Below, piece after piece: positions 4,094 through 14,852 of a stretch of DNA of 43,821 bases. Below the pieces are notes generated by a model. The model saw only the letters and a program-made list of their open reading frames with translations, had not been told where the DNA came from and searched no databases. The first letter of the stretch is position 1. Each line of letters begins with the position of its first letter. This DNA comes from Pseudoflavonifractor phocaeensis (GTDB taxonomy: Bacteria > Bacillota > Clostridia > Oscillospirales > Oscillospiraceae): positions 1 through 43,821 of the forward strand of contig NZ_JADYTU010000017.1 of the NCBI RefSeq assembly GCF_021531375.1. Reading direction: 5' to 3'. A program made the translations under genes and the position numbers.

Positions 4094-5626
4094 TCAGTTG
4101 TCCAGTAGGCCCCGTTCCACCAGAAAGTCATGGGCGGTCTGTTCCACGGTCTGCCCCTCCACGTCCACGGCGTAGGTAAGGGCGACCATGGCCTCGTTGT
4201 CCACCTGGCCGGTGAGCAGCTCCAGCACGTCCTCCAGATTGGGGGCGGCCTCATAAAACCGCTCGAACAGGTCGTCCCGGATCAGGAAGGCGCCGTTGTA
4301 CTCGGGGAAGAAGGAGCGGTCGTCCTCCAGAATGGTGAGGTTGGCCCGCTTGTTCAGACCGTCGGTGGCGTAGACCACCATGACCTCGAAGGCTCCCTCC
4401 TCCACGGCGTTGTACTTCAGCGCCGCGTCCAGGGGAATGCATTCCTTGAAGTTCAGTCCGTAGAAGTCCACGAAGGACTGGTACTTCATGCTGCCTTCGG
4501 CTGTGAAAAACTCATGCTCGCCGCCCAGACGCAGCTGGGGAGCGCAGGCGGCCAGATCGCTGATGGTCTTGACTGCGTATTGTTCCACAACCTCCTGGGT
4601 GACCCCCAGGGCGTAGGTGTTGTCCAGACCTACTTTGCCCATGAGGTGCAGTCCCTCCCGGGCGCTGACTTCCCGGTTCACAAAGTCGTACAGACTCTCA
4701 CCCTCCGGCACGTCGGTGACATCCAGCTTCAAGAAGGTGGTCAGCACCGTGCCGTCATAGCTGAACATCAGGTCGCAGCTGGGGGAGTCCCCCCGCAGGG
4801 AATTGTAGTTGTTCACCTGGGTCATCTGGTCCCGGATCTCCACCGTCAGGTCCGTTTTGTCCTCTACCAGCTGTTTGACCATGCTGTGCATCAGCTTGAC
4901 CTCGGAGTAGTCCCCGTCATAGAGGACCAGCTTGCCTTCGGTGCTTGCGGGGACCAGCATGGAGACGATGAGGGCCACCGAGGCGGCGGCCAGGGCCGCG
5001 CCACCGGTCCACTTGGCCCAGTCGGGGAGCTTTTTATGGGTCCGGCTGTTGAGCCGCCGCTCCGTCCAGCCCATAATCAGGTCCAGCACCAGGGCCATGA
5101 CCATAAGGGCCAGGGTGCCCAACAGGATCAGCTCCATGTTCCGGCGGCGGATGCCGCTGTTGATGATGCTGCCGATGCCGCCCCCGCCCACTGAGGCGGC
5201 AAAGACGGCGGTGCCGATGGCGTTGACCACGGCGATTCGGATGCCGGTGAACAGCATGGGCATGGCCAGGGGCAGCTCCACATGGAGCAGGCGGTAGGCC
5301 TGGGTCATCCCCATGCCGGTGGCCGCCTCCTTTAGGTGGGGGGACACCTGAGACAGCCCCAGGCTGGTGTTACGGACGATGGGGAGAAGGGAGTAGAGGG
5401 CCAGACCAATCATGACAGTGGGCTTGCCCGGTCCCATGACTACCATGATGATGCCCAGCAGGGCCAGGGCGGGAGTGGTCTGGATCAGGTCCACCACCCG
5501 CAGGATGACCTTGCCCGCCCGGGGAAACAGGTAGGACAGCAGGCCCAGGGGAACGCCCACCCCAACGGCGATGACCAGGGAGGACAGCACCAGGAGCAGG
5601 TGCTCCCATACCATGGCAAAGGTCAT
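4094..5626 (-). CDS. Glycine betaine/choline-type ABC importer, permease-substrate-binding fusion
   Basis: A 510-residue fusion. The N-terminal ~210 residues form an OpuBB/OpuCB-type permease with several membrane helices and the EAA loop (KEAATGMGM...LP). After one further transmembrane segment near residues 210-235, which tethers the rest to the outer face, the C-terminal ~270 residues form an OpuAC-type substrate-binding domain (starting KLVLYDGDYSEVKLM). Such fusions are known in the OpuF/OpuC-like quaternary-ammonium importers. The start overlaps the end of the preceding permease by 4 bp (ATGA on the minus strand), implying translational coupling. The substrate (glycine betaine, choline or carnitine) cannot be fixed from sequence alone. 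It is the last gene of a three-gene operon. Confidence 0.92.
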   Translation of the reverse strand: MTFAMVWEHLLLVLSSLVIAVGVGVPLGLLSYLFPRAGKVILRVVDLIQTTPALALLGIIMVVMGPGKPTVMIGLALYSLLPIVRNTSLGLSQVSPHLKEAATGMGMTQAYRLLHVELPLAMPMLFTGIRIAVVNAIGTAVFAASVGGGGIGSIINSGIRRRNMELILLGTLALMVMALVLDLIMGWTERRLNSRTHKKLPDWAKWTGGAALAAASVALIVSMLVPASTEGKLVLYDGDYSEVKLMHSMVKQLVEDKTDLTVEIRDQMTQVNNYNSLRGDSPSCDLMFSYDGTVLTTFLKLDVTDVPEGESLYDFVNREVSAREGLHLMGKVGLDNTYALGVTQEVVEQYAVKTISDLAACAPQLRLGGEHEFFTAEGSMKYQSFVDFYGLNFKECIPLDAALKYNAVEEGAFEVMVVYATDGLNKRANLTILEDDRSFFPEYNGAFLIRDDLFERFYEAAPNLEDVLELLTGQVDNEAMVALTYAVDVEGQTVEQTAHDFLVERGLLDN

Positions 5627-12637: not shown

Positions 12638-13219
12638 ATGGTGTCTATGACCAGACAGCAGGCATGGGACCTGCTGACCAAGTATAATCAGGAGCCCTTC
12701 CATCTGCGCCACGCCATTACCGTGGAGCATGTGATGGGCTGGTACGCCCGGGAACTGGGCTATGGGGAAGAGGCGGATTTCTGGTCTGTGGTGGGTCTGC
12801 TCCACGACCTGGACTTTGAACGCTGGCCGGAGGAGCACTGCAAAAAGTCTCAGGAGCTGATGCGCCAGGAGGGGGTGGAGGAGTCCATCATCCGGGCCAC
12901 CGCCTGCCACGGCTGGGGCATCTGCGTGGACATCAAGCCGGAGCATGAGATGGAGAAGGTCCTCTTTGCCGCCGACGAGCTCACCGGACTCATCGGCGCC
13001 GCCGCCCTTATGCGCCCGTCCAAAAGTGTGGCCGACATGGAGCTGAAGTCTCTGAAAAAGAAGTTCAAGGACAAGAAGTTCGCCGCCGGCTGCTCCCGGG
13101 AGGTCATTGCCGGCGGCGCGGAGCTGCTGGGCTGGGAGCTGGACAAGCTGCTGGACCTGACGCTGAAGGCCATGCAGGCGGAGGAGGCGGCCATCGAGAC
13201 GGCGGTCGGAGCCATATGA
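12638..13219 (+). CDS. HD-domain phosphohydrolase-like protein
   Basis: A 193-residue HD-superfamily protein. The metal-binding pattern is visible as H24 (FHLRHA), the HD pair in VVGLLHDLDFE near residue 54, and a later ATACHGWG His; an Asp in AADELTGL completes it. The superfamily hydrolyses phosphate esters of nucleotides or signalling molecules, but the substrate here cannot be predicted. GGAGG stands 5 nt before the ATG. It is flanked by the degV-family terminator and the leader of oadB, so it is probably monocistronic. Confidence 0.85.
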   Translation: MVSMTRQQAWDLLTKYNQEPFHLRHAITVEHVMGWYARELGYGEEADFWSVVGLLHDLDFERWPEEHCKKSQELMRQEGVEESIIRATACHGWGICVDIKPEHEMEKVLFAADELTGLIGAAALMRPSKSVADMELKSLKKKFKDKKFAAGCSREVIAGGAELLGWELDKLLDLTLKAMQAEEAAIETAVGAI

Positions 13220-13313
13220 TGGGCCGATACGACGAAAAATACTCGAAAACCTTTTGATGATTCGATTGTTTTTCTAAAAGTGTTCAAATTTGGCAAAGAT
13301 TGCCGCTGCCGTC

Positions 13314-13341
13314 TTGACAAATGTGGAACCACTGTGATAAC
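13314..13341 (+). promoter_or_regulatory. Promoter of the oadB leader
   Basis: A perfect -35 TTGACA (13314-13319) and an extended -10 (TG at 13333-13334, then GATAAC at 13336-13341) are spaced 16 bp. The predicted start near 13348 puts the conserved leader element at the very 5' end of the transcript. The 13220-13313 stretch upstream is AT-rich and holds nothing else that I can identify. Confidence 0.75.
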
Positions 13342-13347
13342 ATCCTC

Positions 13348-13454
13348 AATACAATGACAAAGGGGAGTAGTCAGCGCGCCTCCCCGGCGCGCGGCAGAGC
13401 CAACAAGCATGGCGGGTCTTATGAGCCTGTCCTGGTTTTGCCTTAATTGACCAG
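13348..13454 (+). promoter_or_regulatory. Structured leader resembling the yybP-ykoY (Mn2+) riboswitch
   Basis: The transcript begins with AAAGGGGAGTAG (13359-13370), matching the L1 core (GGGGAGUAG) of the yybP-ykoY Mn2+ riboswitch as I remember it. It is followed by a perfect hairpin GCGCGCC/GGCGCGC (P2-like), then GAGCCAACAA resembling the conserved GUCAA segment, a second hairpin with UUAUGA in its loop (13415-13432 region), and GGTTTTGCCTT, whose CCTT can close P1 with AAGG. It abuts a strong terminator, so it looks like an ON/OFF transcription-attenuating riboswitch. Known class members regulate Mn2+ exporters; a Na+ decarboxylase subunit downstream would be unusual, so either ligand or assignment may differ. 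The match is from memory and was not scored. Confidence 0.5.
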
Positions 13455-13486
13455 ACCTGCGTTCCGGCCGGAACGCAGGTTTTTTT
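13455..13486 (+). terminator. Leader terminator: perfect 26-nt palindrome plus T-run
   Basis: 13455-13480 is a perfect palindrome (13-bp arms, ACCTGCGTTCCGG and its complement) and runs directly into seven Ts. It lies between the structured leader and oadB, in the place of a riboswitch expression platform. 13504-13517 (ACCTGTGTTCGGAC) partly repeats the left arm. Confidence 0.9.
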
Positions 13487-13562
13487 CGTCTGATCACGAA
13501 AAAACCTGTGTTCGGACAGATACTTAATATAGTTCAATGTAGAAGAAAGGAAGCTGGGAACA

Positions 13563-14708
13563 ATGGAATTTTTGTGGGAAGGGCTTCTGTCCATCACCTG
13601 GCAGCAGCTGGTCATGTACGCAGTGGGCGGCCTGCTCATCTGGCTGGCCATTGAGAAGGACTTTGAGCCGGCTCTGCTCATGCCGATGGGCTTCGGCGCT
13701 ATTTTGGTAAACCTGCCGCTGTCCGGCGTCATCAATCAGTTCAGCGAGGGCTTGGGCGAGACCCAGGGCATTATCCAGTGGCTCTTTGAAGTGGGGATCG
13801 AGGCCTCCGAGGCCATGCCAATCCTCCTGTTCATCGGCATCGGCGCTATGATCGACTTCGGCCCCCTGCTGGCCAACCCCAAGCTGTTCCTGTGCGGCGC
13901 GGCAGCTCAGGCGGGCATCTTCCTCACCATCCTCCTTGCCGCCGCCATGGGCTTTGACATGAGGGACGCCGCCTCCATCGGCATCATCGGCGCGGCGGAC
14001 GGCCCCACCTCCATCCTGGTGTCCAAGACCCTGCACTCCCAATATGTGGGCGCCATCGCCGTGGCCGCTTACTCCTATATGGCTCTGGTGCCCATCATCC
14101 AGCCCTTCGCCATCAAGCTGGTCACCACCAAAAAGGACCGGGCCATGCGGATGCCTTACCGGGCCCGGGGCGTCTCCCGCCGGCTGCGGATCCTGTTCCC
14201 CATTATCGTCACTGTCATCGCCGGTCTGGTGGCCCCCTCCTCCGTGGCGCTGGTGGGCTTCCTCATGTTCGGCAACCTGATCCGGGAATGCGGCGTCCTC
14301 GCCACCCTGTCCCAGACCGCCCAGAACGAGCTGGCCAACCTCATCACCCTGCTGCTGGGCATCACCATCTCCTTCTCCATGAAGGCGGATCAGTTTGTCC
14401 GGAAGGAGACGCTGATGATCATGGGCCTGGGTCTGGTGGCCTTTGTGCTGGACTCCGTGGTGGGCGTTCTCTTCGTCAAGGTGCTGAACCTCTTCACCCC
14501 CAAGAACAAGATCAATCCTATGGTGGGCGCCGCCGGGATCTCCGCCTTCCCCATGTCCTCCCGGGTCATTGAGAAGCTGGGCCAGGAGGCCGACCCCCAG
14601 AACCATCTGCTGATGCACGCGGTGGCCGCCAACGTGTCTGGCCAGATCGCGTCCGTAGTTGCCGGCGGCGTGGTGCTCCAGTACTGCGCCACCCACCTGA
14701 TTGGCTGA
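13563..14708 (+). CDS. oadB: Sodium-ion-translocating decarboxylase, beta subunit
   Basis: An integral membrane subunit of the biotin-dependent Na+ decarboxylases (oxaloacetate, methylmalonyl-CoA, glutaconyl-CoA), which couple decarboxylation of the biotin carrier to Na+ export. The 381-residue length fits the family. Hydrophobic segments run throughout, with the family motifs MPMGFGAILVNLP (N-terminus), IGIGAMIDFGPLLANP, IGIIGAADGPTSI (Na+/carboxybiotin region, near 145) and ISAFPMSSRV...HLLMHAVAANVSGQIASV near the C-terminus. The start has AAAGGA about 11 nt upstream. Only beta and a tiny gamma-like subunit are encoded here; the alpha and biotin-carrier subunits must be elsewhere, so the substrate is not determined. 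Confidence 0.95.
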   Translation: MEFLWEGLLSITWQQLVMYAVGGLLIWLAIEKDFEPALLMPMGFGAILVNLPLSGVINQFSEGLGETQGIIQWLFEVGIEASEAMPILLFIGIGAMIDFGPLLANPKLFLCGAAAQAGIFLTILLAAAMGFDMRDAASIGIIGAADGPTSILVSKTLHSQYVGAIAVAAYSYMALVPIIQPFAIKLVTTKKDRAMRMPYRARGVSRRLRILFPIIVTVIAGLVAPSSVALVGFLMFGNLIRECGVLATLSQTAQNELANLITLLLGITISFSMKADQFVRKETLMIMGLGLVAFVLDSVVGVLFVKVLNLFTPKNKINPMVGAAGISAFPMSSRVIEKLGQEADPQNHLLMHAVAANVSGQIASVVAGGVVLQYCATHLIG

Positions 14709-14723
14709 TAAGGAGGATTTGTG

Positions 14724-14852
14724 ATGAATATGGCAAATGTGGCTCAGGCTCTGGAAATGATGGCCCAGGGCATGGCCGGTATCTTCGTGGTGCTGGGCGC
14801 TATCGCGCTGATGGTGGCTTTGATGCAGAAGATCGACAACCGGAAAAAGTGA
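14724..14852 (+). CDS. OadG-related small transporter subunit (42 aa)
   Basis: A 42-residue single-pass membrane protein: an amphipathic N-terminus (VAQALEMMAQGMAG), one transmembrane helix IFVVLGAIALMVALM and a short KIDNRKK tail. The G-M-x-G-I-F-V-V-L pattern is that of the OadG/gamma subunit N-terminal helix. Standard gamma/delta subunits are longer, with a soluble tail; this is the miniature form. AGGAGG (14711-14716) stands 7 nt upstream, 15 bp after oadB. It presumably assembles with OadB and stabilises the membrane complex. Confidence 0.82.
   Translation: MNMANVAQALEMMAQGMAGIFVVLGAIALMVALMQKIDNRKK

Follow-up and report, generated by a model that had tools for sequence, protein, structure and literature searches.

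The window analysed here, a stretch of 43,821 nucleotides from Pseudoflavonifractor phocaeensis (contig NZ_JADYTU010000017.1), carries on its forward strand a gene for an OadB-type membrane protein of 381 aa (13563-14708) followed by a gene for a 42-aa single-helix protein related to OadG (14724-14852). The former belongs to the OAD_beta family (PF03977, 492 bits; also TIGR01109) and matches the solved beta subunit from Salmonella (6iva/6iww) with an E-value of 4.5e-95, and the latter passes NF040909 (31.3 bits, cut-off 25) and stays under the cut-off of PF04277 (24.1 bits against 27). Probable ribosome-binding sites, recognized by eye, precede both (AAAGGAAG at 13546-13553 and AAGGAGGA, respectively), and the two genes are likely to lie on one transcript. 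The promoter with an extended -10 that an earlier note on this DNA had described, a consensus match only, is found at 13314-13343 (TTGACA-18-TAACAT, with TG before the -10) and agrees with the consensus at 10 of 12 positions, against 0.5 expected from shuffles. The transcript would be expected to start near 13348-13350, and of 200 shuffled versions of the leader none folds as well (z -3.7).

Within this leader an aptamer of the Mn2+ (yybP-ykoY-like) type with a three-way junction was assigned to 13358-13458, by its match to our model R1 and by covariation in 31 sequences (see below). Its short switch helix P1.1 is formed by AGG (13361-13363) and CCU (13456-13458), and the core of loop L1, GGGGAGUAG, occupies 13362-13370 (the same stretch is read as GGGGAGTAG in descriptions of the leader). 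P1.2 pairs 13370-13373 with 13448-13451, and two hairpins follow the core, as the earlier note had seen: P2 at 13374-13392 (13374-13380 pairing with 13386-13392) and P3 at 13393-13442, the latter with a lower stem of 13393-13401 paired to 13434-13442 and an upper stem within 13411-13431. The core of loop L3, CAACA (13401-13405), is invariant in 31 of 31 aligned rows. An intrinsic terminator, recognized by folding, by its palindrome and by conservation, spans 13453-13486 with a 13-bp stem and a T run; the 26-nt perfect palindrome previously noted ahead of oadB is exact at 13455-13480 and enters seven Ts at 13480-13486. On the closing of P1 the earlier note was mistaken, since the CCTT that it had proposed (13441-13444) supplies, with its CC, the last two letters of P3 on the 3' side and reads CCTG in 27 of the 31 aligned rows; the true partner is CCT at 13456-13458, inside the terminator stem. 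Because this 3' strand of P1.1 sits in the terminator stem, the aptamer helix and the terminator are mutually exclusive. A second inverted repeat (GAACGCAGGTTTTTTTCGT / ACGAAAAAACCTGTGTTC, 13471-13513) overlaps the 3' half of the terminator and the T run, and something similar is visible by eye in L005.

A protein search of 99 related genomes yielded 30 oadB loci, i.e. the window gene and 29 close homologues, and in all 30 a leader with GGGAGTAG and CAACA lies 171-277 nt ahead of the start codon, a fourth G standing alongside GGGAGTAG in every case. When these 30 leaders were aligned together with one leader of an mntP gene, P1.1, P1.2, P2 and P3 were paired in 97.4% of cells, and double changes were found at 16 of 29 pairs, a number reached by none of 500 shuffles; the covarying stems for which the earlier note had looked to leaders of oadB homologues are thus present. 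Changes on both sides occur at five of the seven pairs of P2, at five of nine in the lower stem of P3 and at five of six in its upper stem. P1.1 pairs in all 31 sequences and hardly varies, and P1.2 likewise pairs in all 31, with changes on one side only, so that these two helices, being mostly invariant, draw weaker support from covariation than do P2 and P3. In the same alignment the terminator follows the aptamer and its changes preserve pairing. Since the leader is found in all 30 fetched loci, with covariation, it cannot be put down to chance. Obviously, one may also consider a constitutive terminator or attenuator that responds to no ligand, and a strong terminator together with an Rfam score below the cut-off would fit that explanation; a conserved, covarying aptamer that has its P1.1 strand in common with the terminator makes it scarcely credible.

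As to that Rfam score, no family reached its gathering score anywhere in the window. RF00080 (yybP-ykoY) gives 11.7 bits on the window leader, against a cut-off of 45, about as much as the third match in the genome, which reaches 11.3 bits at a long, unrelated reading frame and was rejected as noise; the best match in this genome, at 20.5 bits, is an mntP leader, and even the sister locus L018, at 38.3 bits, remains under the cut-off. The covariance-model check suggested in the earlier note therefore returned nothing above threshold. This failure says little, because the mntP leader of E. coli K-12 fails as well (41.6 bits; L284:5462-5569), and the alx leader of the same strain (L285:5376-5497) is unreported at E 0.01, both leaders being described as Mn-sensing riboswitches in passages of PMC9603457. 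It seems that the RF00080 model in Rfam 15 is too narrow, its present cut-off missing reported Mn2+ riboswitches. None of 16 distant oadB loci had an RF00080 match at the cut-off either, which speaks against a simple Rfam-based claim. Matches to OmrA-B, microRNA, viral and plastid families were rejected as near chance (E about 1 or more). Another Rfam family, RF02617 (SSRC10, "Streptococcus sRNA 10"), matches leaders of the Mn2+ type at L001:1516-1631, L024:2764-2893 and L215:4175-4290 with 25.9-40.9 bits, below its cut-off of 56, and may be the Mn2+ riboswitch under another name.

We used two models of our own, R1, built from the 31 aligned leaders, and R2, built from 89 sites. With R1 the window aptamer scores 91.3 bits in its own genome, the sequence being part of the training set. 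R1 matches 68 of the 99 relatives, with 104 sites listed, and 60 of these sites were read, namely 55 that are unlike the close oadB leaders and five similar ones chosen on purpose. Behind them we found 39 mntP genes, nine P-type ATPase genes and eight oadB genes (including the five chosen on purpose); of the remaining four sites, two have poor E-values (0.27 and 0.91) and the other two stand before genes of TetR-like appearance, judged by eye. The second R1 site in the window genome itself, at which RF00080 also has its best match, precedes mntP (PF02659). The E. coli mntP leader was found by R2 at E 2.7e-6 and by R1 at 0.008, and the alx leader by R1 at 0.06, with no match by R2. The resemblance to yybP-ykoY that the earlier note had pointed out is borne out by the same core letters before mntP in the same genome, and by the mntP and P-type ATPase genes in relatives. 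Beyond these, the window leader retains the letters of L1 and L3 that surround Mn2+ in the structure from X. oryzae (the correspondence is our own), and we take the last A of CAACA as the probable counterpart of A48 in L3, which contacts Mn2+ there according to PMC6754395. We regard it as very probable that the window leader is a riboswitch of the Mn2+ (yybP-ykoY) type.

The two sites before TetR-looking genes (L063 and L073, i.e. G006:C8 and G012:C1) have the same kind of leader, again by eye, and a TetR-like gene also adjoins mntP in L153 (7343-7867); such genes may also belong to the Mn2+ regulon. In G105:C60, R2 matches 4835-4922 and, after a gap of 56 nt on the same strand, 4979-5062, which would make a possible tandem Mn2+ riboswitch.

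Compared with known yybP-ykoY riboswitches (RF00080; E. coli mntP, L. lactis), the window leader has the same L1, the same L3 CAACA with its discriminating A, and the same P1.1, P1.2, P2 and P3. As in the Mn2+ riboswitch of L. lactis, the 3' strand of P1.1 is common to the terminator; there, as sections of PMC11087558 describe, this segment goes to the terminator when Mn2+ is lacking, and two G:C pairs nucleate P1.1, both of which are kept in the window leader. In the crystal structures of the class a helix P4 closes a four-way junction, whereas folding and alignment reveal no hairpin between P3 and GACCAGACC in the window leader, which we therefore class as a three-way variant rather than a plain member; by eye, P4 is also absent from the mntP leaders of this genus. 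The genus further differs from the class in its target, the OadB-type gene, in the 3' half of L3, mostly CAACA(A)GCAUG, and in a P1.1 that measures exactly 3 bp in each of the 30 oadB leaders, where 33 of the 36 mntP leaders tested have 5 bp (36 of the 39 mntP sites were used, three more distant ones being left out).

The short P1.1 and the altered L3 are what one might expect if the scaffold had been retuned to another cation, and the earlier note had offered Na+ as a guess. L1 and the Mn2+-contacting A are unchanged, however, a long P1.1 of the usual kind occurs in several oadB leaders beyond the genus, and the core is common to the mntP leader of the same genome; moreover, the solved example contacts Mn2+ through five oxygens of phosphates and the N7 of one A (PMC6754395). 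Neither Na+ nor Li+ riboswitch families are among the seven Rfam matches to E 10 in 13200-13600, a result that presupposes models of these families in the library. The Na+-I (DUF1646) riboswitch, which also stands before some oxaloacetate decarboxylase genes, has two helices, P1 and P2, according to excerpts of PMC9337991, and it is not among the matches to E 10 of the window leader. Since the design is that of an mntP leader and no Na+ riboswitch was matched, we set Na+ sensing aside, and a change of ligand of any kind appears very unlikely. The control of an oadB-family gene, in contrast, is indeed the unusual association for yybP-ykoY that the earlier note took it to be.

This association recurs well beyond the window. 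Among the best 80 of 147 named loci, 78 have upstream sequence, and in 58 of these 78 R2 places a leader no more than 700 nt ahead of oadB. This count leaves aside two matches that do not precede oadB and one about 1.1 kb away (L154, apparently the same site in L187). Of the 58, 38 come from the close group and are for the most part the training sequences again; among the other loci the figure is 20 of 40. The named loci (again the best 80 of 147) include Pseudoflavonifractor, Flavonifractor, Flintibacter, Lawsonibacter, Acutalibacter, Neglectibacter, Mobilisporobacter and other Lachnospiraceae. In a class sample of 60 orphan-type loci of 57-76% identity, chosen among the matches listed, the leader lies no further than about 320 nt away in 14. 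In one more of them, L204, the leader precedes an mntP gene that itself precedes oadB on the same strand, and in L136 it lies 665 nt upstream, where R2 found it and a motif test limited to 450 nt missed it.

The protein to which the leader is attached belongs to a distinct part of its family. We compared 189 distinct OadB proteins and built a quick tree from 153 (proteins of at least 84% identity being thinned to every fifth); some of its branches are long, and it separates 33 canonical from 120 orphan proteins at a branch with an SH-aLRT of 100. When all 189 are assigned by this split, alpha-subunit (OadA, GcdA) or biotin carrier genes are found near 29 of 33 canonical genes and only one of 156 orphans, with flanks that differ between the sets from 0.15 to 6 kb and canonical biotin carriers that sit within a few hundred bases. 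The sole orphan with a biotin carrier is L229, and the four canonical loci without a counted neighbour are L246 (on a 4.7-kb contig), L283 (a cut-off carrier fragment at the edge), and L250 and L251 (none). The riboswitch motif divides along the same lines: of the 154 orphan loci for which 200 nt or more of preceding sequence exist, 83 have it upstream (39 of 110 among orphans below 84% identity) and 71 do not, while it is present in none of 32 canonical loci, and R2 finds no leader at any of 33 canonical beta loci. Fisher tests on these counts are extreme but ignore relatedness. On the tree the motif label changes 20 times, at least nine of the changes being forced by well-supported branches, and thus the link between leader and gene was gained or lost many times.

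In the enzyme to which the beta subunit of 6iva/6iww belongs (StOAD), three residues have been linked with the binding of sodium (D203, S382 and N412), one with decarboxylation (E40) and two with activity (R304 and N311), according to passages of PMC7274780, and we mapped these positions by alignment to the solved structure. The window proteins resemble the beta and gamma subunits of the oxaloacetate and glutaconyl-CoA decarboxylases in family (PF03977), in ion-site residues and in having a small OadG-like partner. In the orphans the sodium site is kept (D203 in 120/120, S382 in 120/120, N412 in 119/119), as is Glu40, critical for decarboxylation in StOAD (118/118). In contrast, R304 is R in 33 of 120 orphans and N311 is N in 71 of 120, both being invariant in the 33 canonical proteins, while V416 has become Q in 119 of 119 and G201 has become A in 120 of 120; T148 -> I and Ala -> Met at window residue 273 are further clade-fixed changes around the ion site. 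Since D203, S382, N412 and E40 are kept and R304, N311, V416 and G201 differ, we read the ion site as one that has probably been preserved but retuned. The orphan also departs from StOAD in its own clade, in the lack of a nearby alpha or biotin gene (none was found in the 1.5 kb that flank the window gene in each direction) and in a partner of only 42 aa. It is not an ordinary decarboxylase subunit. The earlier note had the target as a subunit of a Na+-pumping decarboxylase, which is right as to family (OAD_beta), although "decarboxylase" is probably misleading with no alpha subunit near the window gene; NCBIfam, too, names the orphan OadB-OadG proteins sodium ion-translocating decarboxylase subunits.

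For a protein of this kind one may also consider that it is a genuine beta subunit borrowing an alpha subunit encoded elsewhere, in which case Mn2+, sensed by the riboswitch, would tune a Na+ pump or a Mn-dependent carboxyltransferase. The conserved sodium-site residues and Glu40 are consistent with this, and the window genome does hold an OadA-type and a GcdA-type gene elsewhere. The family PF02436 also covers pyruvate carboxylase; it is present in 13 of the 14 class genomes that have leader and orphan (328 of 391 overall), and thus an alpha subunit supplied from elsewhere is conceivable in most species. The near absence of alpha and biotin genes beside orphans, the variable R304 and N311, and the fact that the window genome already has a second, canonical beta subunit with a biotin carrier ahead of it all argue against it. 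So does G456, a genome labelled 100% complete, where a leader (37.9 bits) is present and the only OadB is an orphan; there we found no PF02436, and PF01039 matches only in part-length form, the kind given by acetyl-CoA carboxylase subunits in this genome set, so that a known decarboxylase pump looks unlikely and no alpha candidate is left. The case is weak, however, since the G456 leader reads GGGAGUAA and has an odd L3. Taken together, we consider a borrowed alpha subunit unlikely, though deserving of attention.

The neighbours of the orphans offer some further hints of function. Genes for mntP adjoin orphans in L148/L184 (one contig) and L153 and lie upstream of the orphan in L204; P-type ATPase genes are near orphans in L153, L173, L234 and L265; and DtxR/MntR-family genes lie directly downstream of orphans in three spirochaete loci (L159, L161 and L162). 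The L159 regulator, the only one scanned, passes PF01325 and PF02742 but does not reach the thresholds that NCBIfam sets for its MntR models. Independent cases of such neighbours are few, and genes for P-type ATPases are common; we also discounted a fragment of a P-type ATPase in L174, which has 125 aa and 30% identity and sits where the locus ends.

We favour, as the explanation that is probably correct, a leader acting as a Mn2+ ON switch and an orphan OadB-OadG pair acting as a stand-alone transporter that relieves Mn2+ excess. With little Mn2+, the palindromic terminator would form and transcription would stop. As Mn2+ rises, L1 would dock on CAACA of L3, and the docking would hold the short P1.1 (AGG/CCU) and withhold its 3' strand from the terminator, so that RNA polymerase could read through into the orphan gene and that of its 42-aa partner. 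The two proteins would then constitute an elevator-type cation transporter in their own right, rather than part of a biotin-dependent decarboxylase, and would relieve the excess most likely by exporting Mn2+. Alternatively, the transporter could move Na+ or H+ and help only indirectly, e.g. by restoring a gradient that drives Mn2+ exporters, as its fold, that of the cation:proton antiporter group, its conserved sodium-site residues and the competition of Na+ and H+ in StOAD (described in sections of PMC7274780) might suggest; yet the changes at G201, V416, T148 and residue 273 hint at a changed specificity, and genes controlled by a yybP-ykoY switch usually serve direct export, which makes the indirect route rather improbable. 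Of the favoured explanation, the part in which the orphan OadB itself exports Mn2+ falls a little short of an even chance. Marginally more tentative is the fullest version, in which the orphan OadB-OadG proteins would be a new family of Mn2+ exporters, kin to the beta subunit of Na+ pumps, governed by a three-way Mn2+ riboswitch whose shortened P1.1 would give it, in this genus, a higher Mn2+ threshold than the mntP switch of the same cell, and in some lineages by MntR-like proteins instead. The higher threshold would follow from a P1.1 of 3 bp where most mntP leaders have 5 bp.

The association of a Mn2+ riboswitch with orphan oadB was not found in the open-licence literature that we searched: oadB and riboswitch did not occur together (a gene table in a supplement could already name the gene), nor did manganese exporter and oxaloacetate decarboxylase, and the sole match for sodium ion-translocating decarboxylase with manganese concerns hemin, to judge from the title and the opening lines of the abstract. 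According to a 2026 paper (PMC13274385), Mn2+ efflux systems are of four main types (CDF, MntP, UPF0016 and P-type ATPase), with growing evidence for TerC. In many bacteria the leader stands before a solitary relative of a sodium-pump subunit, which suggests a role of this protein in coping with manganese. If so, many Oscillospiraceae and Lachnospiraceae would possess a further Mn2+ efflux family that its sodium-pump name has concealed, genes at present assigned to energy metabolism would have their annotation corrected, a well-studied riboswitch would gain a regulon member, and the orphans would represent a natural case of a pump subunit turned lone transporter.

Two minor observations may be added. 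Ordinary TPP and purine riboswitches, above their cut-offs, occur near orphan oadB (L164:5457-5565 and L271:12849-12915). In G000, the stretch G000:C14:1518-5484 and both ends of G000:C3 contain a GcdA-type gene, a frame that by eye resembles HgdA, and a canonical beta subunit with a biotin carrier ahead of it, a gene set that perhaps serves glutamate fermentation via glutaconyl-CoA.
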